Shown in pieces: positions 6,505 through 24,016 of a stretch of DNA of 45,247 nucleotides. The notes below the pieces were generated by a model. The model was not told where the DNA came from. It did not search any database and saw only the letters and a list, made by a program, of their open reading frames with translations. The stretch is from Streptosporangiaceae bacterium (lineage in GTDB: Bacteria; Actinomycetota; Actinomycetes; Streptosporangiales; Streptosporangiaceae), in NCBI GenBank assembly GCA_030038015.1, contig JASHPR010000309.1, forward strand, positions 1 to 45,247. The letters run 5' to 3'. Each line of letters begins with the position of its first letter. The first letter of the stretch is position 1. The position numbers were made by a program, and so were the translations under genes.

Positions 6505-7989
6505 TCACGACTGCGGTGCCGCGTCCGAGGACGAGGCGTGCCGTGGAGGCGTGTCGGCGGCGGTGAGGATCTCATGGGTCTCGCCGATGCGCGCGACCCT
6601 ATCCGGGAGTACTTTGCGCAGTACGGCGTAGAGAATCAATGCGGCTACGACAATCGCGCCGAATGCATAAAGCCAGGCGCTCAATGGGTAGGCGGGTAGC
6701 GGCACGAAGGAGTAGTAGAAGACCAAGCCCATAATGAAGACGCTGACGATGCCTAGTAGGGCGGTGCCAGGGTTGAGGATCCCCTGGCGGTAGGCCCAGA
6801 CCACGGCGGCTGCCCCAACTAGCAGGTACATCAGCGTGAAGCAGTAGCCGCAGAACGTTCCGGTGAGCCCGAACGCGGTCGTCGCGTTGGCTCGTGAGGC
6901 GTAAACGTAAAGGCAGAGAATTGCCCAGATCAGGGAAATGCTGATGATGGCGATGTTGGGTGACTTGAACTTCTCGCTGGTCCTGCTGAAGACTTTGGGC
7001 AGCAGCCCGTCTCTGGACATGCTGAGAAAGACACGTGACCCGTAGACGATCCAGGCGGTCATGGCTGCAAACCAGCTACAGGACAGCCCCAGCAGGACGA
7101 TATTCCCGAGCCAGGAGACGCCGTTGTGGCTGGCCAGCACGCTGAGGGGTGCGCTTTGCTGCGCAAAGTTCAGCTTGAGGCTTTCGAATCCGAGGACTTG
7201 GACGTAAGCGTTGATCACGAAGAAGAGCCCCACTACCACCACCGCGCCGATCAGCGCAAGGGGAACCGCCCGGCGCGGTTGCTTTGATTCCAGGCCCAGT
7301 GTTGCCGAGCTTTCAAATCCGCCGAAAGCGAGGACCAGGAACACCACTCCCAGGACTGTGCCGTGGAGCGTTGTGCCGCTGAGGTGGAGCTGCGGCTGGT
7401 CGAAAACGCTGTGGCTCTTGCTGAGTATGACCACGAGCAGCACCATGATAATGGTCATGGAGATACCTTCGATAATCAGGAAGAGGCCAGTGGAGAAGCG
7501 GATATGCAAGTAGGCTAGGATCGAGATGACGGCAATGCCCGCAATCTCAATCGCGAAAACACCTCCGACTGAAGCGTGTGCTATGCCGGTCCCGGCGAGG
7601 AACCCGGCGAAGGCTTGCCCAAAGCCGATGGCCTCGAAGGGCCCTACGATGACGAACAGAGCGATCATCACCGCGCCGACTACGAAGCCCGCCCAGCGTC
7701 CGAGGCCTGAGCTGATGAAGGTATAGGTACCGCCTGCAGTCGCATAGCGGCGAGCGAGCACTGAGATGCTTGCGCCGACCGCGAGCAATCCGACAGAGGC
7801 GATAACCACGGTCAGCCAGGCGCCGCGGGCAGCGTCAGCGAAGGCCAGTGGGATCAGCGAAACTGCGCCGATCGTGGGCCCGATGCCGGCTACCGATTGC
7901 CCTACCAGGCGGAGGTTGTTGAGGACGCTGCGATGCAGGCCGATGTCTTGGGTAGCGTCGAGGCGGTCGGTGCCAGCTTCGGTGGTCAT
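6505..7989 (-). CDS. APC-family amino acid/amine permease
   Basis: A 494-residue protein with about 12 hydrophobic membrane segments, typical of the amino acid-polyamine-organocation family (usual length 450-550). The N-terminal LRLVGQSVAGIGPTIGAVSL segment corresponds to the broken helix 1 that binds substrate in this fold, and FGGFESSATLGLES corresponds to helix 6 with the following conserved Glu. The start ATG at 7987-7989 has GGAGAA seven bases upstream. It probably imports an amino acid or amine by proton symport. Its substrate cannot be assigned. It is convergent with the amidase, and a broken relative lies just upstream, which suggests a duplicated uptake locus. Confidence 0.88.
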   Translation of the reverse strand: MTTEAGTDRLDATQDIGLHRSVLNNLRLVGQSVAGIGPTIGAVSLIPLAFADAARGAWLTVVIASVGLLAVGASISVLARRYATAGGTYTFISSGLGRWAGFVVGAVMIALFVIVGPFEAIGFGQAFAGFLAGTGIAHASVGGVFAIEIAGIAVISILAYLHIRFSTGLFLIIEGISMTIIMVLLVVILSKSHSVFDQPQLHLSGTTLHGTVLGVVFLVLAFGGFESSATLGLESKQPRRAVPLALIGAVVVVGLFFVINAYVQVLGFESLKLNFAQQSAPLSVLASHNGVSWLGNIVLLGLSCSWFAAMTAWIVYGSRVFLSMSRDGLLPKVFSRTSEKFKSPNIAIISISLIWAILCLYVYASRANATTAFGLTGTFCGYCFTLMYLLVGAAAVVWAYRQGILNPGTALLGIVSVFIMGLVFYYSFVPLPAYPLSAWLYAFGAIVVAALILYAVLRKVLPDRVARIGETHEILTAADTPPRHASSSDAAPQS

Positions 7990-9607: not shown

Positions 9608-9637
9608 TTGACAGCCTCTTCCCGCTAAGCCAATACT
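9608..9637 (+). promoter_or_regulatory. Candidate promoter of the amine operon
   Basis: A perfect TTGACA at 9608-9613, an 18-base spacer and AATACT at 9632-9637 (4 of 6 match to TATAAT). The predicted start near 9644 leaves a leader of about 37 bases before the first gene. The dyad GCCA-N4-TGGC (9629-9640) covers the -10 box and could be an operator for the downstream GntR regulator. Confidence 0.45.
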
Positions 9638-9680: not shown

Positions 9681-11216
9681 GTGCCGATGACGGTGTTGCA
9701 CTGGCTCGACGCTGTGTCGGCCGCCCAGGCCACGCGGCCGGCGTTGCTGTTCGAGGACGAGGTCTGGACCTATCAGCGCTTGTGGGCCAAGACGAGGAAG
9801 GCCGCGGCGGCGGTGCAACGGCAACCTGGCTTCGTACCGGGTGCCCGCATCGGGCTGCTGGGCGACAACGAGCCGTCGTATCTCGTGGCCTACCTGGGGA
9901 TACTGCGTGCCGGTGGCGTTGTGGTCCCGCTCAATCCGCGCAACCGGATCGATGAGCTGCGCATTCAGCTCGATCTGGTGCGCGCGGCGTGGTGTATGGT
10001 CGACGATCGCGGATCGCCGCAGGCGTCGGAGCTGGCGCAGACCCACACGGTCCGGACGCTGGCCGAGCTGGGGGACCACGGACACGTCGTGCGAAGCATC
10101 CCGCCGGCCCCATCAGACCATGCGCTCGTCCTGCTAACGAGCGGCAGCACCGGTGCACCAAAAGGCGTCGTCCATACCCACGGCTCGCTTGTGCATGCTG
10201 GGCTGAGTCTGCTCAAGGCTCTTCCGTTCTCCCACGACGACATCAGCATCGCTTTCCTGCCGTTTTTCGCGTCGGTCCCCGAGCACGCGCTACCGGTCCT
10301 GATGAGTGGCGGGGCGTTGCTGATCCTGCGCCGCTTCGACGAGGCCACGGTGTTGGAGACCTGTAAACGCGCGACGACCCTCGCAGCCGTCCCGACGCTC
10401 ATCCGGCGGCTCCTCGAGGTCGGTGGCGCCGACCAGCTTGGGACCCTTCGCTGGGTCTCGTTCGCGTCGGAGCCAATGCCGCCGAACGTTCTGGACCGGT
10501 GGTGGCGCGAGCTCCCGCACGTCGACGCGTATCAGTACTACGGGATGACAGAGCTGCTGCCGATCACGCACGCGGGGCCAGAGCTCCAGCGTATGGCGCC
10601 TGGCACGGTCGGCGTCGCATATCCCACCTCCTCCGTGAGGATCGTTGACGAAGATCTCCGGACGCTGGGACCCGGTGAGGACGGCGAGGTCGTCTGCGCC
10701 AGCCCCGCCCGGATGCTCAAGTACCTCGACGACCTGGGCGCAACGCATCAGGCGCTGACGAAGGACGGCGCCATGCGGACAGGCGATCTCGGTCGGCTCG
10801 ACGAGCGGGGCCGCCTGTTTCTCACCGGCAGGCTCAAGGAGCTCATCATCAGCGGGGGGCACAACGTCGCGCCGGCGGAGATCGAGGCCGTCGCCTGCAT
10901 GCACCCGGATGTGGCCGCGGCCGCGGTCGTGGGAATACCGGACGAGCGGTGGGGTGAGACGCCGGTGGTCGTCGCGGTATCCGCTCGCGGTCGTGTGATC
11001 AGCCCGGAGCAGGTCCTGATCCATTGCGCTGCTCATCTGAGCAGCTATAAGCGTCCGTCCGCGGCCGCGGTCGTCGACGACCTTCCGGTCACCGGCATCG
11101 GTAAGTCCGCAAAGTCGCTGATTCGCGAGGCGATCATGGCCGGTGAGCTCGAGGTCGTCCGGCGTCGGCCTTCGGCTCAGCCGGTGGACGTGGGAAACGA
11201 GACCTTGACCGCATGA
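9681..11216 (+). CDS. AMP-forming acyl-CoA synthetase / ligase
   Basis: A 511-residue ANL-superfamily enzyme. Motifs in order: P-loop-like TSGSTGAPKG (153-162), YYGMTE (286-291), TGDLGRLDERGR (367-378), the hinge region GRLKELIISGGHNVAPAEIE (383-402) and a C-terminal PVTGIGKSAK with the catalytic Lys at 475 or 478. The family activates a carboxylate with ATP and usually transfers it to CoA. It heads a tightly packed operon and overlaps the frame of the next gene. With the ThDP enzyme at 16820 it could make and cleave a 2-hydroxyacyl-CoA, an inference from gene content only. GTG 9681 or ATG 9687 could start it; neither has a clear ribosome site. Confidence 0.88.
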   Translation: MPMTVLHWLDAVSAAQATRPALLFEDEVWTYQRLWAKTRKAAAAVQRQPGFVPGARIGLLGDNEPSYLVAYLGILRAGGVVVPLNPRNRIDELRIQLDLVRAAWCMVDDRGSPQASELAQTHTVRTLAELGDHGHVVRSIPPAPSDHALVLLTSGSTGAPKGVVHTHGSLVHAGLSLLKALPFSHDDISIAFLPFFASVPEHALPVLMSGGALLILRRFDEATVLETCKRATTLAAVPTLIRRLLEVGGADQLGTLRWVSFASEPMPPNVLDRWWRELPHVDAYQYYGMTELLPITHAGPELQRMAPGTVGVAYPTSSVRIVDEDLRTLGPGEDGEVVCASPARMLKYLDDLGATHQALTKDGAMRTGDLGRLDERGRLFLTGRLKELIISGGHNVAPAEIEAVACMHPDVAAAAVVGIPDERWGETPVVVAVSARGRVISPEQVLIHCAAHLSSYKRPSAAAVVDDLPVTGIGKSAKSLIREAIMAGELEVVRRRPSAQPVDVGNETLTA

Positions 11217-11233
11217 CCCGAGAGGAGACCGAC

Positions 11234-12631
11234 ATGCAGAGCCACGCTACGGCGGGAGAGGATCTCGCCACGGCGAACGGACGCCCATCGCACGCATCCA
11301 TACTCGACGAGCTGCGGAGCGTCGGCGTCGATACGCTGATCATCGGCGCGGCGGACCTCAACTGCGAGCTGCGGGCCAAGCGGTTCGAGATCGACCTTTT
11401 CTCACGGGAGGAGGTCGAGGTGGCCTTCAGCGACTATGTCTTCAGCGCCGACATCGCCGAGGAGCTAATGACTCCGCGGCCGAGCTACAAGGGGTACTTC
11501 CCGACCGCGGCGAGCGGGCTGCCGGACGTGTACGTGCGGCCTGACTGGGAGCAACTCCGCATCTTGCCGTGGGACCCGAAGTGCGCGCTGGTGATCGGTG
11601 ACTTCTTCACCCACGACGGAGACGAACTCAAGATCGCGCCGCGAGGGGTGCTGCGGCGCGTCGTCGAGCGGCTGCGCTCGCTCGGGTACGAGCCGATGGC
11701 CGGCTCTGAGTACGAATTCTTCGTCTTCCGCGGCGATCCAGAGACGGCCAGGGAGAACCCGGCGTCGCTCGTCCCGCTCAGCACGGGGCGCGCCTACGGC
11801 CACGGACGCGGCGCGGCGGACGAGAATGCGCTCGGCGTCGTACGCCGGATGATCAACGCCGCCGGTATTCCGGTCGAAGCGGCCAACCCCGAGGCTGCGG
11901 CAGGGCAGAGCGAGATCACGATCCGCTACTCGGATGCGATGACGGCTGCCGACCGCGCCTTCCTCTACAAGCAGTTCGTCAGCGAGCTGCTGGCTCGGGA
12001 GGGGCTCATAGCGTCCTTCATCGCAAAGCTCGACCCCAACGGCTACGGGTCGAGTGGCCACGTGCACATGAGCCTTCGCGATCGCGCCGGCCAGCAGGCG
12101 ATGCTCGACGACTTCGGCGAGCTTTCGCGGATCGCGCAAAACGCGATCGGCGGCTACCTCACGACGATGAGGGACTTCACCGCGTGCTACGCCCCCGTCA
12201 TCAACTCGTATCGCCGGTACCAGATGCCCTACGCCTTCGCAGGCGACACCGTCGCCTGGGGATTCGACAACCGCACGTGCGGACTGCGCGCCATCCAGAC
12301 CACGCCTGGCTCCACGCGCCTGGAGAGCAGGACACCCGGCGCGGACATGAATCCCTACATCGCGCTCGCGGCCTTGTTCGCGGGCATCGGCCACGGCATC
12401 GAGCGGGACCTCGACGCGCCGGCGCCGATCGTCGGCGACGCGTACAACGCTGCCGGCATCGCGCGAGTCCCCAACGATCTCTACGCCGCGACGGAGCTTC
12501 TCGCGCACAGCACCGTCGCGCGCGACTGGCTCGGCGACGAGTTCGTCGACTTCTACGTTGAGACACGCTTCTGGGAGGCCGAGCAGCACCGCCTCGCCAT
12601 GACCGACTGGGAGCTGAGGCGGTACCTGTGA
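11234..12631 (+). CDS. Glutamine-synthetase-like gamma-glutamyl-amine ligase
   Basis: A 465-residue glutamine synthetase fold protein. Visible motifs: GSEYEFF (metal-binding Glu), PEAAAGQSEI, GHVHMS (ammonia/metal site), NSYRRYQMP, the W..DNR segment and RLESRTPGADMNPYIALAAL. In catabolic clusters such as PuuA (putrescine), IpuC (isopropylamine) and AtdA1 (aniline), such proteins ligate glutamate to an amine using ATP. The adjacent C26 hydrolase and aldehyde dehydrogenase give the same gene set, so a catabolic role fits better than ammonia assimilation. ATG 11234 is chosen because AGAGGAGA lies just ahead at 11221-11228; an ATG at 11213 overlapping the previous stop would add seven residues. 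Confidence 0.85.
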   Translation: MQSHATAGEDLATANGRPSHASILDELRSVGVDTLIIGAADLNCELRAKRFEIDLFSREEVEVAFSDYVFSADIAEELMTPRPSYKGYFPTAASGLPDVYVRPDWEQLRILPWDPKCALVIGDFFTHDGDELKIAPRGVLRRVVERLRSLGYEPMAGSEYEFFVFRGDPETARENPASLVPLSTGRAYGHGRGAADENALGVVRRMINAAGIPVEAANPEAAAGQSEITIRYSDAMTAADRAFLYKQFVSELLAREGLIASFIAKLDPNGYGSSGHVHMSLRDRAGQQAMLDDFGELSRIAQNAIGGYLTTMRDFTACYAPVINSYRRYQMPYAFAGDTVAWGFDNRTCGLRAIQTTPGSTRLESRTPGADMNPYIALAALFAGIGHGIERDLDAPAPIVGDAYNAAGIARVPNDLYAATELLAHSTVARDWLGDEFVDFYVETRFWEAEQHRLAMTDWELRRYL

Positions 12632-13413
12632 CGGGGCAGCGACTGAACGGGCGAACCGCGCTCGTCACCGGCGCCGGATCGGGGAACGGGGCGGCCATCG
12701 CCTTGCGCCTGCGCAGCGACGGCGCGGCCGTATGGCTCCTCGACCGTGACCCCGATGGGCTGGAGCGCACCCTCAAGGCATGGCCGGAGGATCTCCGCCA
12801 CGACGCGCACCAGGTCGTGGCCGACATCACCGACGACGACGCGATCACCGACGTCTTCGGCAGGCTGGACTCCCTCGACGTGCTGGTCAACAATGCCGGC
12901 ATCGTGGACCCCGGCACGTTCCCGGAGCTCGGGATCGACGCCTTCAACCGCGTGCTGGACGTGAACCTCCTGGGGGCGTACCGCTGTACTCGTGCCGCAC
13001 ACGAGTTGCTGCGTGCGAGCGGACGGGGCCGCGTGGTGAACATCACGTCGATGGAAGCGCACTACCTCCTCGCCACGGGCGGGCATGTGCAGCCGCACTA
13101 CAACGCGTCGAAGGCGGCCCTTGACCTACTGACGAAGGCGCTCGCCTACGAGATGGCGCCCTTCGGGGTGCGCGTGAATGCCATCGCGCCCGGGGTCATC
13201 GAAACGCCGTTCACAAAGGGCTCTCTCGCCAAGGAGGAGATCTCGAGCTGGATCGTCGGCTGCGTCCCGGCCGGGCGCATCGGCCAGCCGGAGGACATTG
13301 CGGCCGTCGCGTCATTCCTCGCGTCCGACGACGCGGACTACGTCACGGGCGTCTCGATCCCGGTCGACGGCGGTCTCACCCTCGGCTGGTTCCGAGGACG
13401 TGGTGGCGCATGA
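12628..13413 (+). CDS. SDR-family oxidoreductase
   Basis: A 261-residue classical short-chain dehydrogenase/reductase. It has the NAD(P) motif TGAGSGNG near residue 16, an acidic LLDRDP after strand 2 (favouring NAD), VLVNNAG, the catalytic Ser region NITSMEAHYL and YNASKAAL with the Tyr-x3-Lys pair, then PGVIETPF. The GTG start at 12628 overlaps the previous stop (GTGA), and its own stop overlaps the next start (ATGA), so translation is coupled. In the proposed pathway it would oxidise the alcohol made by the R2lox-type oxidase to an aldehyde for the dehydrogenase two genes later. This step is inferred from gene order. Confidence 0.9.
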   Translation: MTGQRLNGRTALVTGAGSGNGAAIALRLRSDGAAVWLLDRDPDGLERTLKAWPEDLRHDAHQVVADITDDDAITDVFGRLDSLDVLVNNAGIVDPGTFPELGIDAFNRVLDVNLLGAYRCTRAAHELLRASGRGRVVNITSMEAHYLLATGGHVQPHYNASKAALDLLTKALAYEMAPFGVRVNAIAPGVIETPFTKGSLAKEEISSWIVGCVPAGRIGQPEDIAAVASFLASDDADYVTGVSIPVDGGLTLGWFRGRGGA

Positions 13414-14123
13414 CCATTCCCGTGATCGGGATCAGCACCTACTCCGTGCATGCGGACTGGAGAGCCTGGAAGGGCGACGCCGCTTTGACGCCGCGCACGT
13501 ACATGAACTGCGTCATCCGCTCGGGCGGCATCCCACTCCTCCTCCCGAACGTGTTGCCGCAAGAGGCCGCGATCGACGCGCTGCTCAACCGCGTTGACGG
13601 CGTCGTACTGATCGGCGGTGAGGACATGTGCGGGGTGTGGAGTGGGCGGGAGGAGGCGGACTCCCAGCACGCTGGGCACTGCGACGAGCGCGACAGCTTC
13701 GAGGTCGCGCTGGCGCGCCGGGCCTGGGAGCGCGACGTCCCGCTGCTCGGCATCTGCCGCGGCGCGCAGGTGCTCAACGTCTCCCGCGGAGGAACGCTCA
13801 TCGAAGATCTGCCGATGGCCGGCGCCTCCCGGGAGCATCTCACCGAGCGAGGGACGTTCAACCTGCACGAGGTCGACCTGAGCAGCGGCAGCCTCGCCGA
13901 GCGCATGTACGGGACGACCGCCCGGGTGCCATCGCACCACCATCAGGCGGTCGATCGCGCGGGCGAAGGGCTGACGGTCACAGGACGTGCCCGCGACGAG
14001 GTCGTCGAGGTAATCGAAGGGCCGGAACGCCGGTTCGCCATCGGCGTGCAATGGCACCCGGAGGAAGGTGAGGACATGATCCTCTTCGAGGAGCTGGTCA
14101 AGGCCGCCGGGGTGCTGGCATGA
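13410..14123 (+). CDS. Class I amidotransferase-fold (C26) gamma-glutamyl hydrolase, PuuD/IpuF-like
   Basis: A 237-residue stand-alone class I glutamine-amidotransferase-like hydrolase. The nucleophile is Cys116 in LGICRGAQVLNV, with His216 and Glu218 in QWHPEE; PSHHHQAV near 175 is the family's substrate-pocket segment. Relatives PuuD (gamma-glutamyl-GABA hydrolase) and the isopropylamine-pathway hydrolase remove the glutamyl group added by a GS-like ligase. It overlaps its neighbours by four bases on both sides, next to the GS-like gene, which supports a role in deprotecting the oxidised glutamyl-amide. There is no synthetase domain, so it is not a biosynthetic amidotransferase subunit. Confidence 0.88.
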   Translation: MTIPVIGISTYSVHADWRAWKGDAALTPRTYMNCVIRSGGIPLLLPNVLPQEAAIDALLNRVDGVVLIGGEDMCGVWSGREEADSQHAGHCDERDSFEVALARRAWERDVPLLGICRGAQVLNVSRGGTLIEDLPMAGASREHLTERGTFNLHEVDLSSGSLAERMYGTTARVPSHHHQAVDRAGEGLTVTGRARDEVVEVIEGPERRFAIGVQWHPEEGEDMILFEELVKAAGVLA

Positions 14124-15505
14124 CCACCGTCACCGAGATGCTCGAGGTGATCGAGCCCGCCACGGGCGACGTGCTCGACGCCCTCCCGACGGTGGCGGTC
14201 AGCGAGCTCGACGCTCGCGTGCATCGTGCCGCGGCGGCGGCAGGCGAATGGCAGGCGCTCTCCCTGGATGACCGAGCTGCGTCACTTCTCGCAGTGGCAG
14301 CTGCGGTCGAGCGCGACGCAGAGGAGCTGGCCCGCCTCGAAAGCCGCAACGTCGGCAAGCCGATCCGCGAGGCGCGAGGCGAGGTTGCGCTCGCGTCCCG
14401 GACCTTCCGCTACTACGCCGGTGCCCTCGACAAGCACCTCGGGCAGACGTTCCCCACCTCCGACGGCGCGCTGCACTACACCGAGCGGCGGCCGTTCGGT
14501 GTCGTGGGAGCGATCGTGCCATGGAACTTTCCGCTCGTGCTCGCATCGTGGAAGATCGCTCCGGCGCTCGCCGCCGGCAATGCGATCATCGTCAAGCCGG
14601 CGGCCCTCACGCCGATGACAGCGCTCGCATTGGCGCGCATTTGCATCGAGGCGGGCCTCCCGCCTGACCTTGTGCAGACGCTTGTCGGCGCCGGCGGGTC
14701 GATCGGACGGGCGATCGTCGACCACCCGGCGATCCGGAAGATCTCCTTCACGGGCTCGACCGAGGTTGGCCGGGAGATCTACCAGCGCGCCGCCGCGCAC
14801 CTCAAGCGGCTCACGCTCGAGCTCGGTGGCAAGGCACCGAACGTGATCTTCGCTGATGCGGACCTGAACCGAGCGCTCGACGCCGCCATCGATGCGTGCT
14901 TTGCGAATGCTGGCCAGGACTGCTGCTCTCGGGCGCGGATCCTGGTGGAGCGCCCCATCCACGAAGTGGCTCTCGCGCGGCTCGCGGAGCGCATCGCGGG
15001 GATGGTCGTCGGCGACCCACTCGACGACCGGACCGAGATGGGCCCGCTCGTGTCGGCCCACCAGCGCTCGACGGCACTCGGCTATGTCAGCGGATCCCGC
15101 GCCGCCGGCGCGCGCGTTGTGTGCGGTGGTGAGGCACTCGACCGGGAGGGCTGGTTCATGACGCCGGCTTTGCTGGCGGACGTGACGTCCGAGATGCCGG
15201 TGGTGCGCGAGGAGGTGTTCGGGCCCGTCGCGGCGCTGCAGCCGTTCGACGACGAAGCCCACGCGATCGCCTTGGCGAACGACACGGACTACGGGCTGTC
15301 GGCATCGGTGTGGACGAGTGACGCAGGGCGTGCAGTGCGGGTCGCGCGGCAGATCGAGTCGGGCGTCGTCAGCGTGAACACGAACAGCTCCGTGCACCTG
15401 ACTGCGCCGTTCGGCGGGATGAAAGCTTCAGGGCTGGGGCGCGAGCTGGGGATGGAAGCGCTCGACGCGTACACCGAACTGAAGACGACATATCAGGCAG
15501 TCTGA
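14120..15505 (+). CDS. NAD(P)-dependent aldehyde dehydrogenase
   Basis: A 461-residue aldehyde dehydrogenase of normal length. It carries Asn136 in PWNFP, the general base Glu234 in LELGGK, FTGSTEVG for the cofactor and the catalytic Cys268 in NAGQDCCS, which unusually is followed by a second Cys. The C-terminal EEVFGPV and GGMKASGLGRELG motifs are intact. It is translationally coupled to the C26 hydrolase. As in the putrescine (PuuC) set, it probably oxidises a gamma-glutamylated or free amino-aldehyde to the acid. Exact substrate unknown. Confidence 0.92.
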   Translation: MTTVTEMLEVIEPATGDVLDALPTVAVSELDARVHRAAAAAGEWQALSLDDRAASLLAVAAAVERDAEELARLESRNVGKPIREARGEVALASRTFRYYAGALDKHLGQTFPTSDGALHYTERRPFGVVGAIVPWNFPLVLASWKIAPALAAGNAIIVKPAALTPMTALALARICIEAGLPPDLVQTLVGAGGSIGRAIVDHPAIRKISFTGSTEVGREIYQRAAAHLKRLTLELGGKAPNVIFADADLNRALDAAIDACFANAGQDCCSRARILVERPIHEVALARLAERIAGMVVGDPLDDRTEMGPLVSAHQRSTALGYVSGSRAAGARVVCGGEALDREGWFMTPALLADVTSEMPVVREEVFGPVAALQPFDDEAHAIALANDTDYGLSASVWTSDAGRAVRVARQIESGVVSVNTNSSVHLTAPFGGMKASGLGRELGMEALDAYTELKTTYQAV

Positions 15506-15520
15506 GATGGAGAGGAACCG

Positions 15521-16489
15521 ATGACCACCGAGCTGGAGGAGCTCAAGCGCTCAGAGAAGTACTTCAACTTCACGCGGGAGATGATGCAGGGCGACATCTA
15601 CCGCAAGTACGAGAAGGCCATCAGGCGGATCTGGAATCCTGTGGACTTCGACTACACGCAGGACGCGGAGGACTGGAAGACGCTCGCAGAGTCCGACCGG
15701 AGGGCGCTCCTGGGCGTGACGATCCGCTTCTTCGCCGGCGAGCAGATCGTGGCGCGGGACGTAGTGCCGATGTTCGTGGCCGCCCGCGCGCTGGGCCGCT
15801 ACGACTGGGTGATGTTCCTGGGGACATTCGCGATGGAGGAGGCCAAGCACGCGGACTTCCTCGCCCACTGGCACAGCAAGGTCGTGGGGATCCTCGAGCC
15901 GCACGAGGTCGCGCCATACTTCCTCAGCCGCGGCAAGACCGTGGATCCGACCGGGCGCTTCGAGATCAAGGAGGTCGCCCACGAGGGCCTTCCCGCCTAC
16001 GCGCGCGCGCTCGAGAGCGCGGTCCACGACGGCGACAGCTACGAGATCAAGCGGCGCTTCATCCGCTATCTCACGCTCTACTGCGGGTTCGTCGAGGGTG
16101 TGCTGTCGATGCCCTCCTACGAGATCGTCGTCGACTCGTGCAAGCACTGGGGAAAGTTTCCCACCCTCCGGCAGGGCTTCCGCCACATCCTCGCCGACGA
16201 GGGCCGCCACATCACCTTCGGGACGAAAGCGATCCAGCTGATGCTCGCGGAGCATCCCGAGCTCGAGCGCGAGGTGCACGAGACCTTCGACGAGTTCCGC
16301 GGCTCCATTGTCGGCCTCGTCGAGTACCAGAAGACGATGGCGCACCTGGACCTAGAGAAATACCAGGTGCAGAAGGCGCGCCACTACCGCAACCGCTGTC
16401 GTGAGATGGGTGTCACCCCCGACGAGACGCTCGTCGAGCAGATCCTCGATCCCGAGATCGATTTCGTCGTCGGGGTGGTGGCCGGTTGA
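15521..16489 (+). CDS. R2-like ligand-binding oxidase (R2lox-type) di-metal protein
   Basis: A 322-residue ferritin-like protein related to the small subunit of class I ribonucleotide reductase. All six metal ligands of R2lox are present with conserved spacing: Glu74 (GEQIV), Glu107 and His110 (EEAKH), Glu192 (VEGVL), Glu227 and His230 (DEGRH). Val77 and Tyr187 sit three residues after the first Glu and five before the fourth, the positions of the Val-Tyr ether cross-link known in the Mycobacterium and Geobacillus proteins. R2lox proteins bind Mn/Fe and a long-chain ligand, and their reaction in the cell is unknown. Here the gene lies inside an amine operon, 15 bases after the aldehyde dehydrogenase, with GGAGAGG before its ATG. 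It may hydroxylate a glutamylated amine (inference). Confidence 0.85.
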   Translation: MTTELEELKRSEKYFNFTREMMQGDIYRKYEKAIRRIWNPVDFDYTQDAEDWKTLAESDRRALLGVTIRFFAGEQIVARDVVPMFVAARALGRYDWVMFLGTFAMEEAKHADFLAHWHSKVVGILEPHEVAPYFLSRGKTVDPTGRFEIKEVAHEGLPAYARALESAVHDGDSYEIKRRFIRYLTLYCGFVEGVLSMPSYEIVVDSCKHWGKFPTLRQGFRHILADEGRHITFGTKAIQLMLAEHPELEREVHETFDEFRGSIVGLVEYQKTMAHLDLEKYQVQKARHYRNRCREMGVTPDETLVEQILDPEIDFVVGVVAG

Positions 16490-16503
16490 TGGAGAGGCGG
16501 ACG

Positions 16504-16671
16504 GTGGGCAAGAAGCGTTATGTCTGCCTGGAGGCAGGCTGCGAGGCGGTGATCGAGGCAGCTGGCGAGGATTCGCTCGTCGAGGCGGTACAGGCGCACA
16601 TGTCAGAGGCGCATAACACCTTCGAGCTCGAGGACGTGATCCTCGCCAACGCCGTCGACGATCAGCGGTGA
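16504..16671 (+). CDS. Small DUF1059-like protein
   Basis: A 55-residue protein from GTG 16504, chosen because GGAGAGG at 16491-16497 lies six bases ahead, the same layout as before the R2lox gene. An ATG at 16489, overlapping the R2lox stop, would add five residues. It reads MGKKRYVCLEAGCEAVIEA with a Cys pair five residues apart and an HMSEAH segment, the pattern of DUF1059 proteins (YxCxxxGC...H...H), which suggests a small metal site. The family has no known function. Its place between the oxidase and a ferredoxin hints at a role with them, for example as metal or redox accessory (inference). Confidence 0.7.
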   Translation: MGKKRYVCLEAGCEAVIEAAGEDSLVEAVQAHMSEAHNTFELEDVILANAVDDQR

Positions 16672-16677
16672 GATCGC

Positions 16678-16833
16678 ATGCCGTACGTGATCGTCGAGCC
16701 GTGCATCGGCTCGACGAACGCCTGCTGCGCGCAGGTCTGCCCGGTCGAGGCGTGCCTCGCCGACAGCGACGTCCCGGTGGACTGGGAGCGCTACATCGCC
16801 GAGAACGCGAGGTACTTTAATGCACCGACGTAA
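16678..16833 (+). CDS. 51-residue ferredoxin, shortened
   Basis: A 51-residue ORF from ATG 16678 with GGTGAG five bases ahead. It begins MPYVIVEPCIGSTNACCAQV and ends with a PVDWERYIAENARYF-type segment. The start matches the first cluster region of seven- or eight-iron ferredoxins (Cys9, Cys16/17, Cys21) and the end matches the extreme C-terminus of longer family members (about 80-110 residues). The usual middle, with the CxxCxxC second-cluster ligands, is absent, as if the protein had recombined between two CPV-x-x-C motifs. Cys9, 16, 17, 21 and 26 remain, enough for one cluster in principle. It could serve as electron donor to the R2lox-type oxidase, or be a non-functional deletion product. 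Its stop overlaps the next gene by 14 bases. Confidence 0.65.
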   Translation: MPYVIVEPCIGSTNACCAQVCPVEACLADSDVPVDWERYIAENARYFNAPT

Positions 16834-18559
16834 CGGGAGCGTGGCGCACGCCATTGCGGTCTTTCTGAAGCAGCAGGGCATCGAGCGAGTCTTCAGTCTG
16901 CCCGGCGGCCACATGAAGCCGATTTGGGACGAGCTCGCGCACGAGGGCGTGCGCATCGTCACGGCCAGGCACGAGTGCGCCGCCGTCCATATGGCGCAGG
17001 CCGAGGCCGACCTGACGGGGCGGCTCGCCGTCGCGATCGTGACCACGGGACCTGGGCTCACCAACGCCGTCACCGGTATGGGCTGCGCGTATGCAGCTCG
17101 ATCGCCGGTGCTCGTCATCTCCACGCGGCCGCCACGTCCGCAGCAGGGCATGGGCGCGCTGGAGGAGATCGACCAGCCTGCGATCGTCGCGCCAGTGTGC
17201 CGGGGGGTCGAAGTCGTATCCCATGCCCGTCACGTCGTGCCGCGCCTGGACCTTGCTGTCAGCACCGCGTTGGGCGACAACGGCCCGCCGGGTCCAGTAT
17301 GTATCGAGTTTCCCACCGACCTCCTGGCCGAGGCGCTGCCGCCGCCGTACGCCGGCCACGCGGCGTGGTCGCGACGCACGCGCGCGATGCGGCCGCCCCT
17401 GCCCGAGACGGTGCACCGGGCCGCCGAGCTGGTGCGCAACAGCCGGCGGCCACTCATCATCTCCGGCCGGGCCGTGCTCGAGTGCCGCGACGCAGTCGTC
17501 CGCTTCGCGGAGAGCTCTGGCGCGGTCTATCTCGACACGCGCGCGAGCCGGGCTAATCTATCGGCGCGGATCCCGTCGTACGCTCCGGCGCTGCGTGCAC
17601 GCGTCATCGCCGAGGCCGACCTCGTGATCACTGCCGGTCGCGTGCTCGACTTCGAGCTCGCCTATGGCTCACCAGCGATCTTCCGGCAGGCCGAGGCCTT
17701 CTTGCGCATCGGCCGTGATGCCGACGAGGTGACCACCAACCGGCGCGGCGACGTGGAGCTGCGCGCGGACGTCGGACTCGCCTTGGAGGCACTCGTCGAC
17801 GCCGGAGCGGCTCCCGCTGACCCGGACCGCGACTGGCTCGAGGAGATCCAGGCGGAGAACGCACGCAAATCCGCGCTCTTCCAGCAGGGGCTCCGTTCAC
17901 ACCCACCCGACGAGCACGGCCGGATGCACCCCTACTCGATGATCGCGGCGGTCAACGACTTCATCTGCGACGACTCCGTCATCATCGCCGACGGGGGCGA
18001 CATCCTCTCGTGGGCGCGCACGGCTCTCCGCGCTCCCATGTACCTCGACCTGGGGCCGTTCGGTTGTCTCGGCGTCGGCGTGCCGTTCGCCGTCTCCGCG
18101 GCGCTGAACTTCCCGGGGCGCCGCGTCATCGCTGTCGTCGGCGACGGTGCGCTCGGCTTCAACGTTATGGAACTCGAGACCGCAGTGCGCGAGGGCGCGC
18201 GGGTGGTGGTCGTCGTCGCCAACAATCGGGCGTGGAACATCGAACGTGCTGACCAGATCGTCAACTACGACGGCCGCGTTGTCGGCACCGCGCTCACGGA
18301 CTGCGACTTCGCCGCCGTCGCGCGTGGACTGGGCGCTTATGGCGAGCGCGTGGAACGTCCCGAGGACCTCGCTCCCGCGATTGAGCGCGCACTGGCGCGA
18401 GCGCCGGCCGTCGTCGACGTCTTCGTCAGCGGCGAGCCGCTGTCGGCCGACACCCGGAGCGGCCTCGCAGTCGTCCCGCCCCTGCAGGCCCTGGTGGCGT
18501 GGGACCAGGCCGAGAACGAATGGCTCCAACAACACGAACCCCTGAGAGGATTGGCATGA
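16820..18559 (+). CDS. Thiamine-diphosphate-dependent lyase/decarboxylase
   Basis: A 579-residue three-domain ThDP enzyme. The activating Glu is residue 52 (ARHECAAVHMA), and GDGALGFNVMELETAVREG followed by VVVANNRAW is the GDG-NN cofactor motif. The family includes acetolactate synthase, benzoylformate decarboxylase, oxalyl-CoA decarboxylase and 2-hydroxyacyl-CoA lyase. Which one applies cannot be read from sequence, but a ligase in the same operon makes a 2-hydroxyacyl-CoA lyase attractive (inference). ATG 16820 lies inside the ferredoxin's last codons with GCGAGGT just ahead; a GTG at 16841 is the alternative. It differs clearly from the ThDP enzyme at the left edge. Confidence 0.87.
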   Translation: MHRRNGSVAHAIAVFLKQQGIERVFSLPGGHMKPIWDELAHEGVRIVTARHECAAVHMAQAEADLTGRLAVAIVTTGPGLTNAVTGMGCAYAARSPVLVISTRPPRPQQGMGALEEIDQPAIVAPVCRGVEVVSHARHVVPRLDLAVSTALGDNGPPGPVCIEFPTDLLAEALPPPYAGHAAWSRRTRAMRPPLPETVHRAAELVRNSRRPLIISGRAVLECRDAVVRFAESSGAVYLDTRASRANLSARIPSYAPALRARVIAEADLVITAGRVLDFELAYGSPAIFRQAEAFLRIGRDADEVTTNRRGDVELRADVGLALEALVDAGAAPADPDRDWLEEIQAENARKSALFQQGLRSHPPDEHGRMHPYSMIAAVNDFICDDSVIIADGGDILSWARTALRAPMYLDLGPFGCLGVGVPFAVSAALNFPGRRVIAVVGDGALGFNVMELETAVREGARVVVVVANNRAWNIERADQIVNYDGRVVGTALTDCDFAAVARGLGAYGERVERPEDLAPAIERALARAPAVVDVFVSGEPLSADTRSGLAVVPPLQALVAWDQAENEWLQQHEPLRGLA

Positions 18560-18948
18560 GCGTCACCATCCATCAGCTGGAGCACCGAGAGGCTCCGCGC
18601 GGTTACAGCGAGGCGGCCAGCGGCAGCGGGATCCTTGCTGTGGCGGGGCAGCTCCCAGCGCACGAGCTGCTCCAGGCAGAGGCAGGGTTCGCCGAGCAGT
18701 TCGTTTCGGCTCTGCGGCGGTTCGTGGAGGTCGTCGAGTCCTCCGGCGCGGCCAGGACCGACATCCTCCTCATGCGGATCTATGTCACCAGCGTGACGGA
18801 GTACACCGGATCGCTGCGCGAGTTCGGGCGCGATTACAAGGAAGCCCTCGGCGGCCAGTACCCCGCCGTCACGCTCGTCGAGGTGAGCGGGCTGATCGAC
18901 CCTCGCGCCAAAGTGGAGATCGAAGGCCTCGCGTCGGTGCCAGGCTGA
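18556..18948 (+). CDS. RidA/YjgF/UK114-family protein
   Basis: A 130-residue RidA-family protein starting at ATG 18556, which overlaps the preceding stop (ATGA) and has GAGAGGA at 18544-18550. The C-terminal IDPRAKVEIEGLA carries the conserved Arg that in RidA enzymes contacts the substrate carboxylate. RidA proteins hydrolyse reactive enamine/imine intermediates made by PLP enzymes; many pathway-specific paralogues exist. Here it closes the ten-gene operon and may remove imines formed during amine oxidation or by the dialkylglycine-decarboxylase-like enzyme nearby (inference). Confidence 0.88.
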   Translation: MSVTIHQLEHREAPRGYSEAASGSGILAVAGQLPAHELLQAEAGFAEQFVSALRRFVEVVESSGAARTDILLMRIYVTSVTEYTGSLREFGRDYKEALGGQYPAVTLVEVSGLIDPRAKVEIEGLASVPG

Positions 18949-18997
18949 CCGGACGTTATTGGCATAGGAGGATGTGCCGATCTGCGGGTCAGTGGCT

Positions 18998-19999
18998 ATG
19001 CTGGTCCGGGTGAGCGCAATCCGGCTGCGGCATCCCTCCGACGTCCCGATCTACAAGCAGATCCTCGGCCACATCAGATACATGATCGAAGCGGGACAGC
19101 TTGCGGATGGCGACCGCTTGCCGAGCAGCCGCCTGCTCGCGGACAACCTGCATGTAAACCGGAACACGGTGGCGCGGGCGTACCGGGATCTGCGCGACCA
19201 GGGTCTCGTGGAGTCACGCAAGCGCAGTGGCATGGTTGTCACGGGAGCTGTGGCGGCCCGGCGGCAGGGGGCGGCGCGCGACCAAGCCCGCTCGGTCATC
19301 GAGTCTGCCGCCCGCAGGTGCATCTCCTTGGGCCTGTCGGCCGAGGAGGTCTACTCCTTGGCCTTCCACTTCGCCACGCACGCGGAGGACGCGAAGCTCC
19401 AAGTATCGTTCGTCGAGTGCAACACCGAACGTTCCAACTACTTCGCGAAGGAGCTCTCCGACCGACTGGGGTTGCCCGTCAAGCCGCTCGTGCTGGGGGA
19501 ATTCGATGCCAGCGCGGAGCGGCCTGATCTGGTGCTCACGACGTTCTTTCACCTCGCTGAGGTCCGCCGGCTGATGCGCCGCACCGGATGCGACGTGGTG
19601 GCGATCGTGGTCGCTCCCCACGTGCAGACCCTCGTGCAGATTGCCGCCGTCCCAAAGGACCGGCGCGTTGGCATCCTCTACTCGACGGAGCACCAGGCGG
19701 AAGGCATCCGGGACTCGCTGGTGCAGTCCGGCCTCTCGAACATCGAGGTGCTCCACGGCTCCGACGACGAATCTCTTGAGAGCGTCGACGTGGTCATCGT
19801 GCCTAGCGAGATGCCGGAGCTGCGCGACGAGCTCGATGGTCGCGTCAAGGTGATCGAGTTCGGCAACGTTCTTGACGAGGCGTCGACCCGTATGGTCTCG
19901 GCGGTCGTTGACGAGCTGCGCGACAGCAAAGCCAACGGATCGGCCGCCGGGAACACGCCGCACGACGGCTTCGAGCTGTTCAGCCTCCCGGTTGGCTGA
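18998..19999 (+). CDS. GntR-family transcriptional regulator with a large ligand-binding-like C-terminus
   Basis: An N-terminal winged helix-turn-helix of the GntR family (VPIYKQILGHIRYMIEAGQL, LPSSRLLADNLHVNRNTVAR, AYRDLRDQGLVESR) is followed by about 230 residues that are not a PLP-enzyme (MocR) or FCD domain. This C-terminus reads like an alternating alpha/beta ligand-binding domain (VSFVECNTERSNYF, LVLTTFFHLAEV, VAIVVAPHV, VGILYSTEHQ). It lies 50-odd bases after RidA and is the likely local regulator of the operon. The start is uncertain: GTG 18974, ATG 18998 and GTG 19010 are in frame; AGGAGG at 18966-18971 is too near the first. The gene end overlaps the convergent hydrolase by 20 bases. 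Confidence 0.82.
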   Translation: MLVRVSAIRLRHPSDVPIYKQILGHIRYMIEAGQLADGDRLPSSRLLADNLHVNRNTVARAYRDLRDQGLVESRKRSGMVVTGAVAARRQGAARDQARSVIESAARRCISLGLSAEEVYSLAFHFATHAEDAKLQVSFVECNTERSNYFAKELSDRLGLPVKPLVLGEFDASAERPDLVLTTFFHLAEVRRLMRRTGCDVVAIVVAPHVQTLVQIAAVPKDRRVGILYSTEHQAEGIRDSLVQSGLSNIEVLHGSDDESLESVDVVIVPSEMPELRDELDGRVKVIEFGNVLDEASTRMVSAVVDELRDSKANGSAAGNTPHDGFELFSLPVG

Positions 20000-20853: not shown

Positions 20854-22173
20854 TCAGGTGGATGTCGCCGCGTGGAGGCGAGACCCACCGACCGGCCGCG
20901 CATCGGCGAGGGCGCGGTCGAGGATCTCGAGCCCGACTTCGAGATCCGCCTCACTGATCGTCAGGGGTGGCGCGAGGCGCAGAACGCTGCCGAGCGCGGG
21001 GAACTTCACGATGTTGACGTTCAAGCCGAGCTCAAGGCAGCGCTGCGTCACCGCCGTTCCCAAGACAGGGTCTGGCACGCGCGTGTCACGGTCCTGCACC
21101 AGCTCGAGACCAAGCATCAACCCGGCTCCGCGGACGTCGCCTACCTGCTCGTGCCGCCTGCGGAGTTCCTCCAAGCCGGTGCGCAGACGGCTGCCGAGCT
21201 CGGCCGCTCGCTCTGCGAGCCGCTGGTCGACGACGGTCTGCAGCACTGCCCGGCCGATGGCCGCCGGCAGCGGATCCGCCACATGAGAGGTGAAGTGCAG
21301 GAAGCCCTTTTCGAAGGCGTCCTGCTCGATCTCGGCCGACGTGATCGTCGCCGAGAGAGGGAGCCCGCCACCCAGCGTCTTCGATAGCGTGAGGATGTCC
21401 GGGATGACGTCCTCCCCCTCGAACGCGAACATCCGACCGACCCGGCCGAGCCCGGTCTGTGCTTCGTCCAGGATCAGCAGCATGCCGCGTTCGTTGCAGT
21501 GCCGGCGGAGCGCCGCCAGGTAGCCGGGCGGCAACGGCACGATGCCGCCAACGCTAAGAACTGGTTCGGCGATCACTGCGGCCGGCGCGCCGGTCGACTG
21601 GGCATCCGCAAGCTCCATGCCCACCTCGAGACAGGTGAAGTCGCAGCGGTCGCGGCAGTGCCGTACTGGGCACCGGTAGGCATTCGGTGTTGGCAACACC
21701 ATGCTCCCCGGCATCGCCGGCCCATAGCCGCGATGGCCGGCACTGTACGTACTCGATGCCGCCCCGGCGGTCATGCCGTGCCAGGAACCGGTGAACGCGA
21801 GAACCTCGTGGCCGCCCGTGTGGAGTTTCGAGAGTCGCAGGGCGGCTTCGTTGGCCTCGCCACCGGTCGACAGGAACATCGCCCGCGATAGCGTCGGAGG
21901 AAGGACGGCCATCAGCTCGCGGGCCAAGTCGAGGACATCCGTCCCGATGAAGCCGCTGTAGAGGTGGACGAGGCGAGACCCCGCATCCTGCATCGCCGCA
22001 AGGATCGCTGGATGGCTGTGCCCGAGCGTCGCGCACATTTGCCCCGATGTGAAGTCGAGGATGCGGCGACCTTCAGTCGTCGTCAGCCAGCTTCCTTCGG
22101 CCCGCTCGATCACGACATCCGCGAACTCGCCACCGTACCGGATGAGCATTTCCCGTCCATCGTGCATGCTCAC
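20854..22173 (-). CDS. 2,2-dialkylglycine-decarboxylase-like PLP enzyme (class III aminotransferase)
   Basis: A 439-residue fold-type I PLP enzyme. It resembles Burkholderia 2,2-dialkylglycine decarboxylase: Gln45 in FTSGQMCATLGHSHPAI (Gln52 there), Trp131 in SWHGMT (Trp138), Asp236 in LDEAQTG, the PLP Lys265 in TLSKTLGGG (Lys272), and an Arg in LRLAPPLT (Arg406). That enzyme decarboxylates alpha,alpha-dialkyl amino acids such as 2-aminoisobutyrate to a ketone while transferring the amino group to pyruvate. An ordinary omega-transaminase function is the alternative. A four-Cys stretch lies near residues 168-181. The GTG at 22173 or an ATG at 22167 starts it; a candidate promoter would begin transcripts about at 22167. 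Confidence 0.83.
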   Translation of the reverse strand: MSMHDGREMLIRYGGEFADVVIERAEGSWLTTTEGRRILDFTSGQMCATLGHSHPAILAAMQDAGSRLVHLYSGFIGTDVLDLARELMAVLPPTLSRAMFLSTGGEANEAALRLSKLHTGGHEVLAFTGSWHGMTAGAASSTYSAGHRGYGPAMPGSMVLPTPNAYRCPVRHCRDRCDFTCLEVGMELADAQSTGAPAAVIAEPVLSVGGIVPLPPGYLAALRRHCNERGMLLILDEAQTGLGRVGRMFAFEGEDVIPDILTLSKTLGGGLPLSATITSAEIEQDAFEKGFLHFTSHVADPLPAAIGRAVLQTVVDQRLAERAAELGSRLRTGLEELRRRHEQVGDVRGAGLMLGLELVQDRDTRVPDPVLGTAVTQRCLELGLNVNIVKFPALGSVLRLAPPLTISEADLEVGLEILDRALADARPVGGSRLHAATST

Positions 22174-22229: not shown

Positions 22230-23320
22230 CGATAGAAAAATTTATTTCATTCTGCGATGATCGTGACATGCGTGTTGCCCCGCTGGCCTTGCGGCCGGGT
22301 GATGAGAATGAACTCCGGCGCATGGCGGCCTCCCAGCGCGGTGATGGCGGGATGGCCCGCCGGGCGCGGATCGTGTTGCTGGCCGCCGAGGGCCGACCGC
22401 ACAGCGAGGTCGCCCAGCGGGCGGGGACCTCGGTGCCGACGGTTCGGCAGTGGCGGTCCCGGTATGCCGGCGGCGGGATCGAGGCGCTGAGGGATCTGCC
22501 CCGCCCCGGACGGCCGAAGACGCTGGATAAGACGGAGATCCTGGTCCGGACGCTGGAGCCGCCGCCGCGCCGGCTGGGGGTGACGCACTGGTCGTCGCGG
22601 CTGCTGGCCACCGACCTCGGCATCTCCTCCGCCAGCGTGGTCGAGGCCTGGCAGGACTGGGGGCTGCAACCCTGGCGGCAGCAGAGCCTCAAGTTCTCCA
22701 CCGAGCCGCAACTGGAGGCCAAGCTCGCCGACGTGGTGGGCTTGTACCTCCATCCCCCTGACAACGCCGTAGTCGTCTGCATAGACGAGAAGTCCCAGGT
22801 GCAGGCGCTGGACCAGACCCAGCTGATCCTGCCCATGCTGCCCGAGCGGGCCACCCACGACCACATCCGGCATGGCGTCACCACGCTGCTCGCCGCCCTG
22901 GAGATGGCCACCGGGCAGGTGGTGGACGCCTGCTATCCCCGCCACCGGCACCAGGAGTTCCTACGCTTCCTGAAGAAGGTGGCCGCCGCCTGGCCCGGGC
23001 GTGAGCTGCATGTCGTGTGCGACAACGATGTCACCCACAAGCATCCGGCCATCAGGGACTGGCTGGCCGCCAGCCCGCGCGTCACCCTGCACTTCACCCC
23101 CACCGGATGCTCGTGGCTGAACATGGTGGAAGCGTTCTTCTCGATCATCACCCGCCAAGCCATCCGCCGCGGCACCTTGCGCTCCGTCAAGGACCTGACC
23201 GCCAAGATCGGCGCCTTCATCGACGGCTGGAACCAGCAATGCCAGCCATTTGCGTGGACTAAACCAGCCGATGAACTGCCGACCAACATCAGCAAGAAAG
23301 AAACTTCCCGAGCGGAACAC
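22230..23320 (+). mobile_element. IS630-family insertion, boundaries approximate
   Basis: The transposase coding part and its short flanks give about 1.1 kb, normal for IS630. The AT-rich left flank (AATTTATTTCATTCTGC, from about 22238) and the inverse of the right flank (AAGTTTCTTTCTTGCTGATG, up to about 23310) are imperfectly similar and may be terminal repeats. IS630 elements insert at TA; TA lies at 22229-22230 and at 23321-23322, but the ends are not proven. It sits in the divergent space between the PLP enzyme and a GntR gene. Confidence 0.5.
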
Positions 23321-24016
23321 TACGTGCGTGAAGACCCAACCAGCCTGGGCGAGATCGCGTACAGCCGGGTCCGCCATGCCATCGTCCGGCTCGAGCTACC
23401 GCCGGGCGCGCCGGTCTCGGAGCAGCAGCTTGTCGAGGAATACGGCCTGACGAAGGCCTCCGTCCGTGCGGCGCTTGCTCGCCTGCGGGTGCACGGCCTC
23501 GTGCAGTTGGCACCTCGGCGCGCCCATGTTGTAACCGCCGTGACGCTGCGAGACGTGCGCGAGGTGTACGAGCTGCGGCTCGCGATCGAGCCGCTGGCGG
23601 CGGAGTCCGCGGCGGGACGGATGACTGCCCGGGATCTGCAGCGGCTTCGCGAGCTAACCTCCGATCCGCCCGATCTTGAAGACTCCGTCTCGGTGGACCG
23701 CTTCCTCATCGCCAACCGAGCGGTTCACGTGGGTGTCGCGGCCGCGTCCGGGAACCAGCGCTTGGAGCGCATCGTCTCCCAGTTGCTCGACGACAGCGAG
23801 CGCGTCATCCTGCTCGCGGTGCGCGCGGGCGCCGGCCATCACGGCCGCCGCGTCCACGAGGAGCACCGCGCGCTGATCGCCGCGTTGGAAGCGGCCGACA
23901 AGAAGGCCGCGCGCGCGGTGATGGCCGCCGCGATCGGCGGTTTTCGCGACGAGCTCGTAGATGCACTGATGAACTCCGAGCGGATGTCTCATATCGCCCT
24001 GCACCCCGCTGACTGA
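22268..24016 (+). CDS. IS630 transposase fused in frame to a GntR/FCD regulator
   Basis: One uninterrupted 582-codon frame. Residues 1-~350 are an IS630 transposase: N-terminal helix-turn-helix (RIVLLAAEGRPHSEVAQRAG), then the catalytic triad Asp173 (CIDEKSQ), Asp252 (CDNDVTHKHP) and Glu288 (SWLNMVEAFFSIITRQAIRR). The usual end of such proteins (PFAWTKPADEL, KKETSRAEH) is present but has no stop. Residues 353-582 are a complete FadR-type regulator: GntR helix-turn-helix (IAYSRVRHAIV, VSEQQLVEEYGLTKASVRAA) and an FCD ligand domain (LRDVREVYELRLAIEPLAAE). GTG at codon 353 (23324) with AGCGGA upstream could start the regulator alone. Either a fusion protein, a separate regulator, or both may be made. 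The regulator probably served the divergent PLP-enzyme gene. Confidence 0.82.
   Translation: MRVAPLALRPGDENELRRMAASQRGDGGMARRARIVLLAAEGRPHSEVAQRAGTSVPTVRQWRSRYAGGGIEALRDLPRPGRPKTLDKTEILVRTLEPPPRRLGVTHWSSRLLATDLGISSASVVEAWQDWGLQPWRQQSLKFSTEPQLEAKLADVVGLYLHPPDNAVVVCIDEKSQVQALDQTQLILPMLPERATHDHIRHGVTTLLAALEMATGQVVDACYPRHRHQEFLRFLKKVAAAWPGRELHVVCDNDVTHKHPAIRDWLAASPRVTLHFTPTGCSWLNMVEAFFSIITRQAIRRGTLRSVKDLTAKIGAFIDGWNQQCQPFAWTKPADELPTNISKKETSRAEHYVREDPTSLGEIAYSRVRHAIVRLELPPGAPVSEQQLVEEYGLTKASVRAALARLRVHGLVQLAPRRAHVVTAVTLRDVREVYELRLAIEPLAAESAAGRMTARDLQRLRELTSDPPDLEDSVSVDRFLIANRAVHVGVAAASGNQRLERIVSQLLDDSERVILLAVRAGAGHHGRRVHEEHRALIAALEAADKKAARAVMAAAIGGFRDELVDALMNSERMSHIALHPAD

Follow-up and report, generated by a model that had tools for sequence, protein, structure and literature searches.

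A divergent R2lox-like protein next to DUF1059 in an Ipu-type gamma-glutamylamide operon

What might an R2lox-like oxidase do among genes for the breakdown of amines? The physiological substrate of R2lox proteins is described as an open question in the available excerpts of two articles (PMC6060897, PMC4118035), and an excerpt of a third reports alkane hydroxylation by one of them, GkR2loxI (PMC10867098). The question is raised by a 45,247 bp contig, hereafter the window, of the draft genome of a Streptosporangiaceae bacterium (GenBank: GCA_030038015.1, contig JASHPR010000309.1). The window carries a gene for an R2lox-like protein, which a first-pass annotation of the sequence had called a true R2lox, and not an R2 subunit of ribonucleotide reductase (RNR), that comes with a pathway context. 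That context holds up and has a name: it is an operon of the type of the Ipu isopropylamine clusters, with genes for gamma-glutamyl-alkylamides. What is new is the R2lox-like variant itself, which has DUF1059 as its neighbour and belongs to an operon of this type; its mechanism and substrate are proposed from the context. Searches of an open-access library found no report tying R2lox to gamma-glutamylation or to DUF1059.

The gene has a coding-type codon composition, with a G+C content at third positions of 0.93. The best match to its product among solved structures is GkR2loxI (4hr0; phmmer, E 3.1e-28, query residues 25–289). Other R2lox entries come next, and after them RNR R2 with much weaker matches. 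In the phmmer alignment E74, E107, H110, E192, E227 and H230 occupy the metal-ligand columns of GkR2loxI, V77 falls in the column of its V72 and Y187 in that of its Y162. These are the six ligands and the cross-link pair that had been claimed, and the claimed spacings of 33 residues from E74 to E107 and 5 from Y187 to E192 are also correct. Two further ligands of GkR2loxI are presumably E102 and H105, and Val71 is presumably the Mycobacterium number of the cross-linked valine. The GkR2loxI numbers E69, V72 and Y162 are given in PDB entry titles, and R2lox residues E167 (PMC6060897) and E202/H205 (PMC10867098) in excerpts of the literature. Conservation was assessed in a MAFFT alignment of 41 rows, comprising 23 full-length members of the clade of the window protein, 17 R2lox-like outgroup rows and the RNR R2 of the host (locus L017); the truncated L075, L076 and L077 and both pieces of the broken L053 gene were excluded from the counts. 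All eight positions are invariant in 23/23 clade and 17/17 outgroup rows, and the match is therefore evidently not a chance one. The Tyr equivalent to R2lox Y175 is also present.

Might the protein be an RNR R2 subunit? The Pfam label for its domain, Ribonuc_red_sm, would allow this, but the protein has Glu and Tyr in the two columns that hold Asp (E74 column) and Phe (Y187 column) in the R2 of the host. As a rule, RNR R2 proteins have Asp for their first ligand and Phe in the Y187 column. The host R2 does keep the Val, so that Val alone is not diagnostic of R2lox. In addition, this R2 is a separate gene on another contig (C205, 266.9 bits), and R2lox models and structures score above those of RNR: NCBIfam has five R2lox models, and these take the first five places, ahead of every RNR model. 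An AlphaFold2 model of the protein (pLDDT 91.6, pTM 0.89, from a 32-row alignment) gives Z scores of 28.5–31.0 against 27 R2lox entries and at most 26.3 against RNR R2 entries. Signature residues, fold, profile order and the tree described below support an R2lox-like protein rather than an RNR R2; the latter identity is scarcely credible, and was rejected on the profiles, residues and fold.

That part of the earlier claim stands; the word 'true' is too simple. All five NCBIfam R2lox cut-offs are missed (best 157.9 bits against a cut-off of 194), as they are by three other clade members, and identity to R2lox structures in structural alignments is 23–30%. A 46-row tree, built by a quick IQ-TREE method and containing long branches, places 28 clade rows in one group (SH-aLRT 100) on a stem of 1.37 changes per site, and this group joins actinobacterial R2lox, tentatively, at SH-aLRT 88. 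The fold, the six ligands, the Val/Tyr positions and the Y175-equivalent Tyr are shared with GkR2loxI, MtR2lox (3ee4) and SeR2lox (7qbp). Unlike these, the window protein has an insert that makes the stretch from H110 to Y187 about 20 residues longer than in GkR2loxI, and a C-terminal tail that is conserved within the clade. Four residues after E192 there is Thr in 22/23 clade rows and Ser in the window protein, against Ala in 17/17 outgroup rows and Phe in the host RNR. In bacterial multicomponent monooxygenases a Thr probably lies at this distance from the ligand. The Ala, A171 of R2lox, replaces the Phe of class Ic R2 and opens a ligand channel, according to an excerpt of PMC4118035. The position is one of 25 counted as invariant in the clade yet never found in outgroup rows, some of them being gaps there. 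The protein is thus no standard R2lox, given the missed cut-offs, its own clade, the insert, the tail, the Thr/Ser and the DUF1059 neighbour; we regard it, from its sequence, as a deeply divergent relative in a separate clade.

The DUF1059 gene is joined to the R2lox-like gene by a shared TGATG, its ATG overlapping the R2lox stop. Is this peculiar to the window? A DUF1059-type pattern lies directly 3' of R2 in 22/26 clade loci (those with the R2 3' end present, which excludes L077 and the 5' piece of L053) and in 0/18 R2lox or RNR rows; the exceptions are L063, L064, L076 and L068. Three of the 22 downstream peptides were checked against Pfam and all three pass. The 22 loci are not independent events, and one genus is over-represented. 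Against PDB sequences the DUF1059 protein has only insignificant zinc-finger matches (best E 0.5), and the one literature passage seen on DUF1059 concerns hydrogenase clusters. The next open reading frame (ORF), a tentative gene overlapping the start of the following one, resembles FdxA at about half its length; it has no Pfam match, and BLAST against Rhodococcus FdxA gives only E 0.018. Two Rhodococcus R2lox clusters also contain fdxA, with a flavin oxidoreductase. The first-pass annotation mentions neither these two small ORFs of the window nor the insert before Y187.

The genes of the operon (9681 to 18948) all have the same orientation, and neighbours either overlap slightly or are a few bases apart; their order is acyl-CoA ligase, glutamine-synthetase-like gene (GS), short-chain dehydrogenase/reductase (SDR), C26 hydrolase, aldehyde dehydrogenase (ALDH), R2lox, DUF1059, ferredoxin-like ORF, 2-hydroxyacyl-CoA lyase (HACL) and RidA (Table 1). 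There are 4-base overlaps from the ligase through the ALDH, and 15 bases separate the ALDH from R2. A -35/-10-like site upstream of the ligase (9608–9637) was not used as evidence, as the scan gave 2 such sites against 0.9 expected by chance. A tblastn search of 72,556 plasmids with the GS found 87 records, of which the top one was from Microbacterium sp. YJN-G and the next IpuC of P. aurescens TC1. To the three Ipu clusters (pTC1 and pTC2 of P. aurescens TC1, and Microbacterium sp. YJN-G) the identities are 38–41% for GS and 46–49% for SDR, with those for C26 and ALDH as in Table 1. SDRs are common; when the host genome was queried with the Microbacterium SDR, the window SDR came first of 47 matches (220.9 bits, the next 155.6). 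In pTC2 and Microbacterium the order is ipuC-SDR-amidotransferase-P450-ferredoxin-reductase, so the GS-SDR-C26 order of the window is the same in two of the three clusters; in pTC1 it is SDR-amidotransferase-P450-ferredoxin-reductase-ipuC. An ALDH lies near each.

Table 1. Predicted genes of the operon and of its surroundings in the window
Feature	Position	Strand	Evidence and remarks
APC amino-acid/amine permease, divergent from operon, possible uptake gene	6505–7989	-	PF13520, E 9.5e-29; only 24–26% to Ipu permeases
AMP-forming acyl-CoA ligase-like, first operon gene, 4-base GS overlap	9681–11216	+	PF00501, E 3e-67; no NCBIfam cut-off reached among the matches listed
GS-like gamma-glutamylamide synthetase, nearest Ipu-type enzymes	11213–12631	+	PF00120, 277 bits; 40.8% identity with the GS of Microbacterium sp. 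YJN-G and 38.5% with the annotated P. aurescens TC1 IpuC
SDR dehydrogenase	12628–13413	+	48.7% to Microbacterium Ipu-cluster SDR
C26 (PuuD/IpuF-type) gamma-glutamyl hydrolase	13410–14123	+	PF07722, E 6.2e-55; 35–41% to C26 of three Ipu clusters
ALDH	14120–15505	+	PF00171; 47–50% to one ALDH in each of three Ipu clusters
R2lox-like oxidase	15521–16489	+	322 aa, ATG start; profile, alignment, tree, AlphaFold
DUF1059 protein, 60 aa, C-x4-C...H-x4-H	16489–16671	+	PF06348, 25.5 bits, above the gathering cut-off of 21.1
Ferredoxin-like ORF, 51 aa, five Cys (tentative)	16678–16833	+	NCBIfam FdxA_Actino, 28.6 bits, E 1.3e-6, cut-off of 125 missed
Thiamine-diphosphate-dependent HACL, 2-hydroxyisobutyryl-CoA lyase type	16820–18559	+	NF058623, 668.5 bits, above the cut-off of 600; AcHACL 7pt1, E 1.4e-144
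RidA-type protein overlapping HACL	18553–18948	+	PF01042, E 2e-15; ORF listed from 18499, true start uncertain
GntR-type regulator	18974–19999	+	PF00392, E 9.3e-16
2,2-dialkylglycine decarboxylase-type (DGD) class III pyridoxal-phosphate enzyme	20854–22173	-	PDB search, DGD 473.9 bits over 5–423, next molecule type 226.5; no NCBIfam cut-off reached among the matches listed

What the known clusters and the window do not share is the oxygenase. Hydroxylation of gamma-glutamyl-isopropylamide in the Ipu route is assigned to a P450 system (PMC6776027, in excerpt). Theirs is the P450-ferredoxin-reductase set, and the window has instead the R2lox, DUF1059 and ferredoxin-like genes, together with the extra ligase, HACL and RidA. 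No R2 homologue was found in the three Ipu clusters, and BLAST with proteins of the known clusters gave no P450, ferredoxin or reductase match in the window at E < 1e-3. The simplest reading is therefore that R2lox may fill the P450 slot, as the oxygenase of an Ipu-type alkylamine pathway that hydroxylates a gamma-glutamyl-alkylamide, to which we give a probability of about 0.5. The GS-like enzyme would join the alkylamine to glutamate, and the R2lox-like enzyme, with a dimetal site (Mn/Fe or Fe/Fe), would activate O2 and hydroxylate a C-H bond of the resulting amide, the step performed by the P450 system in the known Ipu clusters. The alcohol could then be taken to the acid by the SDR and ALDH, and the C26 hydrolase would free an amino acid along with glutamate. 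The DUF1059 protein and the ferredoxin-like ORF might help to load the metals or to supply electrons. The Thr/Ser after E192 and the alkane hydroxylation reported for GkR2loxI also count in favour of this reading.

Do other members of the clade keep such company? Counted by tblastn with window, L063 and L066 proteins, GS is found at 7/27 clade loci, C26 at 2/27, Glx-type genes at 5/27 and any of these at 10/27, against 0/13 R2lox loci (Fisher p 0.016, with flanks of differing length and related loci that form about five groups by lineage). By lineage, GS occurs in 3/10 (p ~0.015, assuming a chance of ~5.5% of GS within 10 kb per lineage, as estimated from GS counts). At L063, within about 70 bases 3' of R2, there are a type III GS (581 bits, above its cut-off of 469.6) that is nearest to GMAS-type structures, a class II amidotransferase and a glutamate-synthase-like protein; upstream on the opposite strand are sarcosine-oxidase-like proteins of the soxA and soxB families, under their cut-offs, and formate-tetrahydrofolate ligase. 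The R2lox-like gene also directly precedes GMAS-like GS and Glx/Mgs-like genes at L064 and L076, and the L063 cluster, like these from actinobacterial metagenome-assembled genomes (MAGs), is N-methylglutamate-like. GmaS, MgsABC and Mgd are the gene names of the N-methylglutamate pathway. What three clade loci share with that pathway is thus the GMAS-like type III GS with Glx/Mgs-like genes that lie beside R2; the pathway is not present in the window.

Several points weigh against R2lox as the hydroxylase of the glutamylated amine. The complete operon was seen once only, and the nearest relatives of the protein (L065 and L075, up to 67%) are on contigs of 3–6 kb that do not show it; at 17/27 clade loci, many of them on short contigs, tblastn found no GS, C26 or Glx match. 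The amine scheme leaves the HACL and the ligase without a step, and the want of a reductase match in the window counts here too. The genome assembly is a draft in 786 contigs, its contamination is estimated at 6.87%, and the proposal rests on sequence and gene context, from which the substrate, the reaction, the redox partners and the choice of R2lox over a distant P450 all derive. Finally, the host genome has a P450 on another contig (C57, L106 9344–10549) that is 62.7–69.4% identical to Ipu P450s and could do the hydroxylation, and R2 and P450 genes co-occur elsewhere in the clade: GS, a permease and two P450s lie near R2 at L066, L073 and L074, and a P450, ALDH, alcohol dehydrogenase, class III aminotransferase and C26 at L068. 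As some loci carry both enzymes, R2 is not a mere replacement of P450, and a simple exchange of one for the other is weakened by these loci and by the C57 gene.

Could the C57 P450 hydroxylate the glutamylated amine, then, and R2lox carry out another oxidation, such as the oxidative N-dealkylation of an N-methylated amine, or of the amide, with release of an aldehyde? The loci with both enzymes beside GS or C26 would fit this, as would L063, where R2 stands between the GMAS-like and Glx genes and the soxA/soxB-like genes with formate-tetrahydrofolate ligase. However, the C57 P450 is alone, since the 12.7 kb read there contain neither a ferredoxin nor a reductase nor any further ipu gene, and the window operon (contig C41) has no P450; we consider this unlikely, if worth keeping in view.

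Alternatively, R2lox could serve the second half of the operon. It would hydroxylate an acid at the carbon beside its carboxyl group (or a tert-butyl carbon). The ligase would form a 2-hydroxyacyl-CoA and HACL would split this into formyl-CoA and an aldehyde or ketone, leaving GS, SDR, C26 and ALDH to take an amino alcohol with no oxygenase. This four-gene module can indeed do without one, since a Nonomuraea locus has GS-ALDH-SDR-C26 matches and no R2 or P450 match. The HACL, which is above its curated cut-off, comes next after R2, DUF1059 and the ferredoxin-like ORF, and long-chain fatty acids co-purify with known R2lox proteins (PMC6060897, in excerpt). Yet HACL was found at none of the 26 other clade loci searched, and the ligase only weakly at L064, whereas GS, C26 or Glx recur. 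R2 lies between the Ipu-type genes and HACL, so its position alone is indecisive. On balance such a role seems improbable. More improbable still is that an ordinary R2lox, with fatty acids or alkanes as its substrates, has come into an amine operon by chance: fold and signature are the same, but the operon is tight, the separate clade is set apart by an insert, a neighbour gene and a second-shell residue of its own, and the protein misses every curated R2lox cut-off.

Which amine might be used? DGD-type enzymes act on 2-aminoisobutyrate and give acetone from a dimethyl substrate. The DGD-type gene near the operon is possibly part of the same route. A HACL-type lyase likewise gives acetone from a dimethyl substrate (PMC7176365, in excerpt). 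Because these two neighbours both yield acetone from dimethyl substrates, a tert-butyl-type amine is hinted at as the most specific guess, to be taken as a lead only; it would be converted to 2-aminoisobutyrate, the substrate class of DGD. Extended further, the R2lox-like clade with its dedicated DUF1059 partner might be a dimetal monooxygenase for glutamate-tagged amines, which here would hydroxylate a methyl group of gamma-glutamyl-tert-butylamide on a path from tert-butylamine through 2-aminoisobutyrate to acetone by DGD, with HACL on a related 2-hydroxyisobutyryl-CoA branch. This we hold to be doubtful. DGD is outside the operon, HACL has no step in the tert-butyl scheme, and nothing relevant to tert-butylamine degradation was among the literature matches listed. 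The 2-hydroxyisobutyryl-CoA lyase cluster of A. chiangmaiensis resembles the window in its lyase, but has the HCL ligase and mpdBC, unlike the window (PMC7176365); the searched text does not mention R2lox, and 'ferritin' and 'ribonucleotide reductase' are absent from it. Elsewhere in the window there are three FAD-dependent (DAO) oxidoreductase genes, at 28241–29872, 35485–38082 and 41473–42726 (all on the - strand), one of them fused to GCV_T domains and with amino-acid permeases nearby; they are possible amine-catabolism genes.

The tie to gamma-glutamylamide genes reduces the candidates to a few small substrates that are easy to make, namely gamma-glutamyl-isopropylamide, -tert-butylamide and -methylamide, and makes DUF1059 a candidate R2lox partner. 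If R2lox is the hydroxylase, a dimetal R2 scaffold performs a job known from P450s, and DUF1059 gains a function-linked context.

How widespread is this variant? Close relatives are rare. Within the order, 1/345 genomes matched at E <= 1e-50, the genome itself. An even draw of the phylum gave matches at 1e-20 in 10/396 genomes, with a close match only in the own genome and one other (63%). Of 399 genomes drawn from the class to which that other one belongs, 20 matched a two-row profile at 1e-60, in 26 places. Two narrow peptide patterns run over 84,980 species genomes found 9 loci, all in actinobacterial MAGs and several labelled Thermoleophilia, Gaiellales or Solirubrobacterales; most of them appear identical to those from the profile scan. 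At L053 the R2 gene is broken by one in-frame TAA, and a Rieske oxygenase alpha subunit gene lies upstream. The host genome has a second R2lox-like protein (L016 8228–9232, contig C684) that falls elsewhere in the tree; just upstream of its gene is an ORF that by eye looks TetR-like.

The composition of the operon differs from that of the rest of the contig. The tetranucleotide profile is odd at 10–19 kb (0.916–0.925; 0.942 at 15–21.8 kb), against 0.969–0.986 for the rest, and the operon correlates at 0.95–0.98 with the other genomes of the clade and at 0.915 with its own flanks. For a control flank this is reversed (0.985 own, 0.91–0.95 others). Stretches of Microbacterium and pTC1 also reach 0.95 against the operon, and a second, z-scored measure is less clear-cut. 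An island of odd composition, 10001–19309, thus resembles the genomes of the other clade members. This fits horizontal acquisition of the operon, as judged from composition; a chimeric contig may also be behind it, given a draft genome with contamination at the level stated above. Beside the island, at 22268–24016 (+), there is an ORF of 582 aa in which residues 31–320 are an IS630 transposase (240.7 bits) and the remainder resembles, by eye, a GntR/FadR-type regulator, an apparent in-frame fusion.
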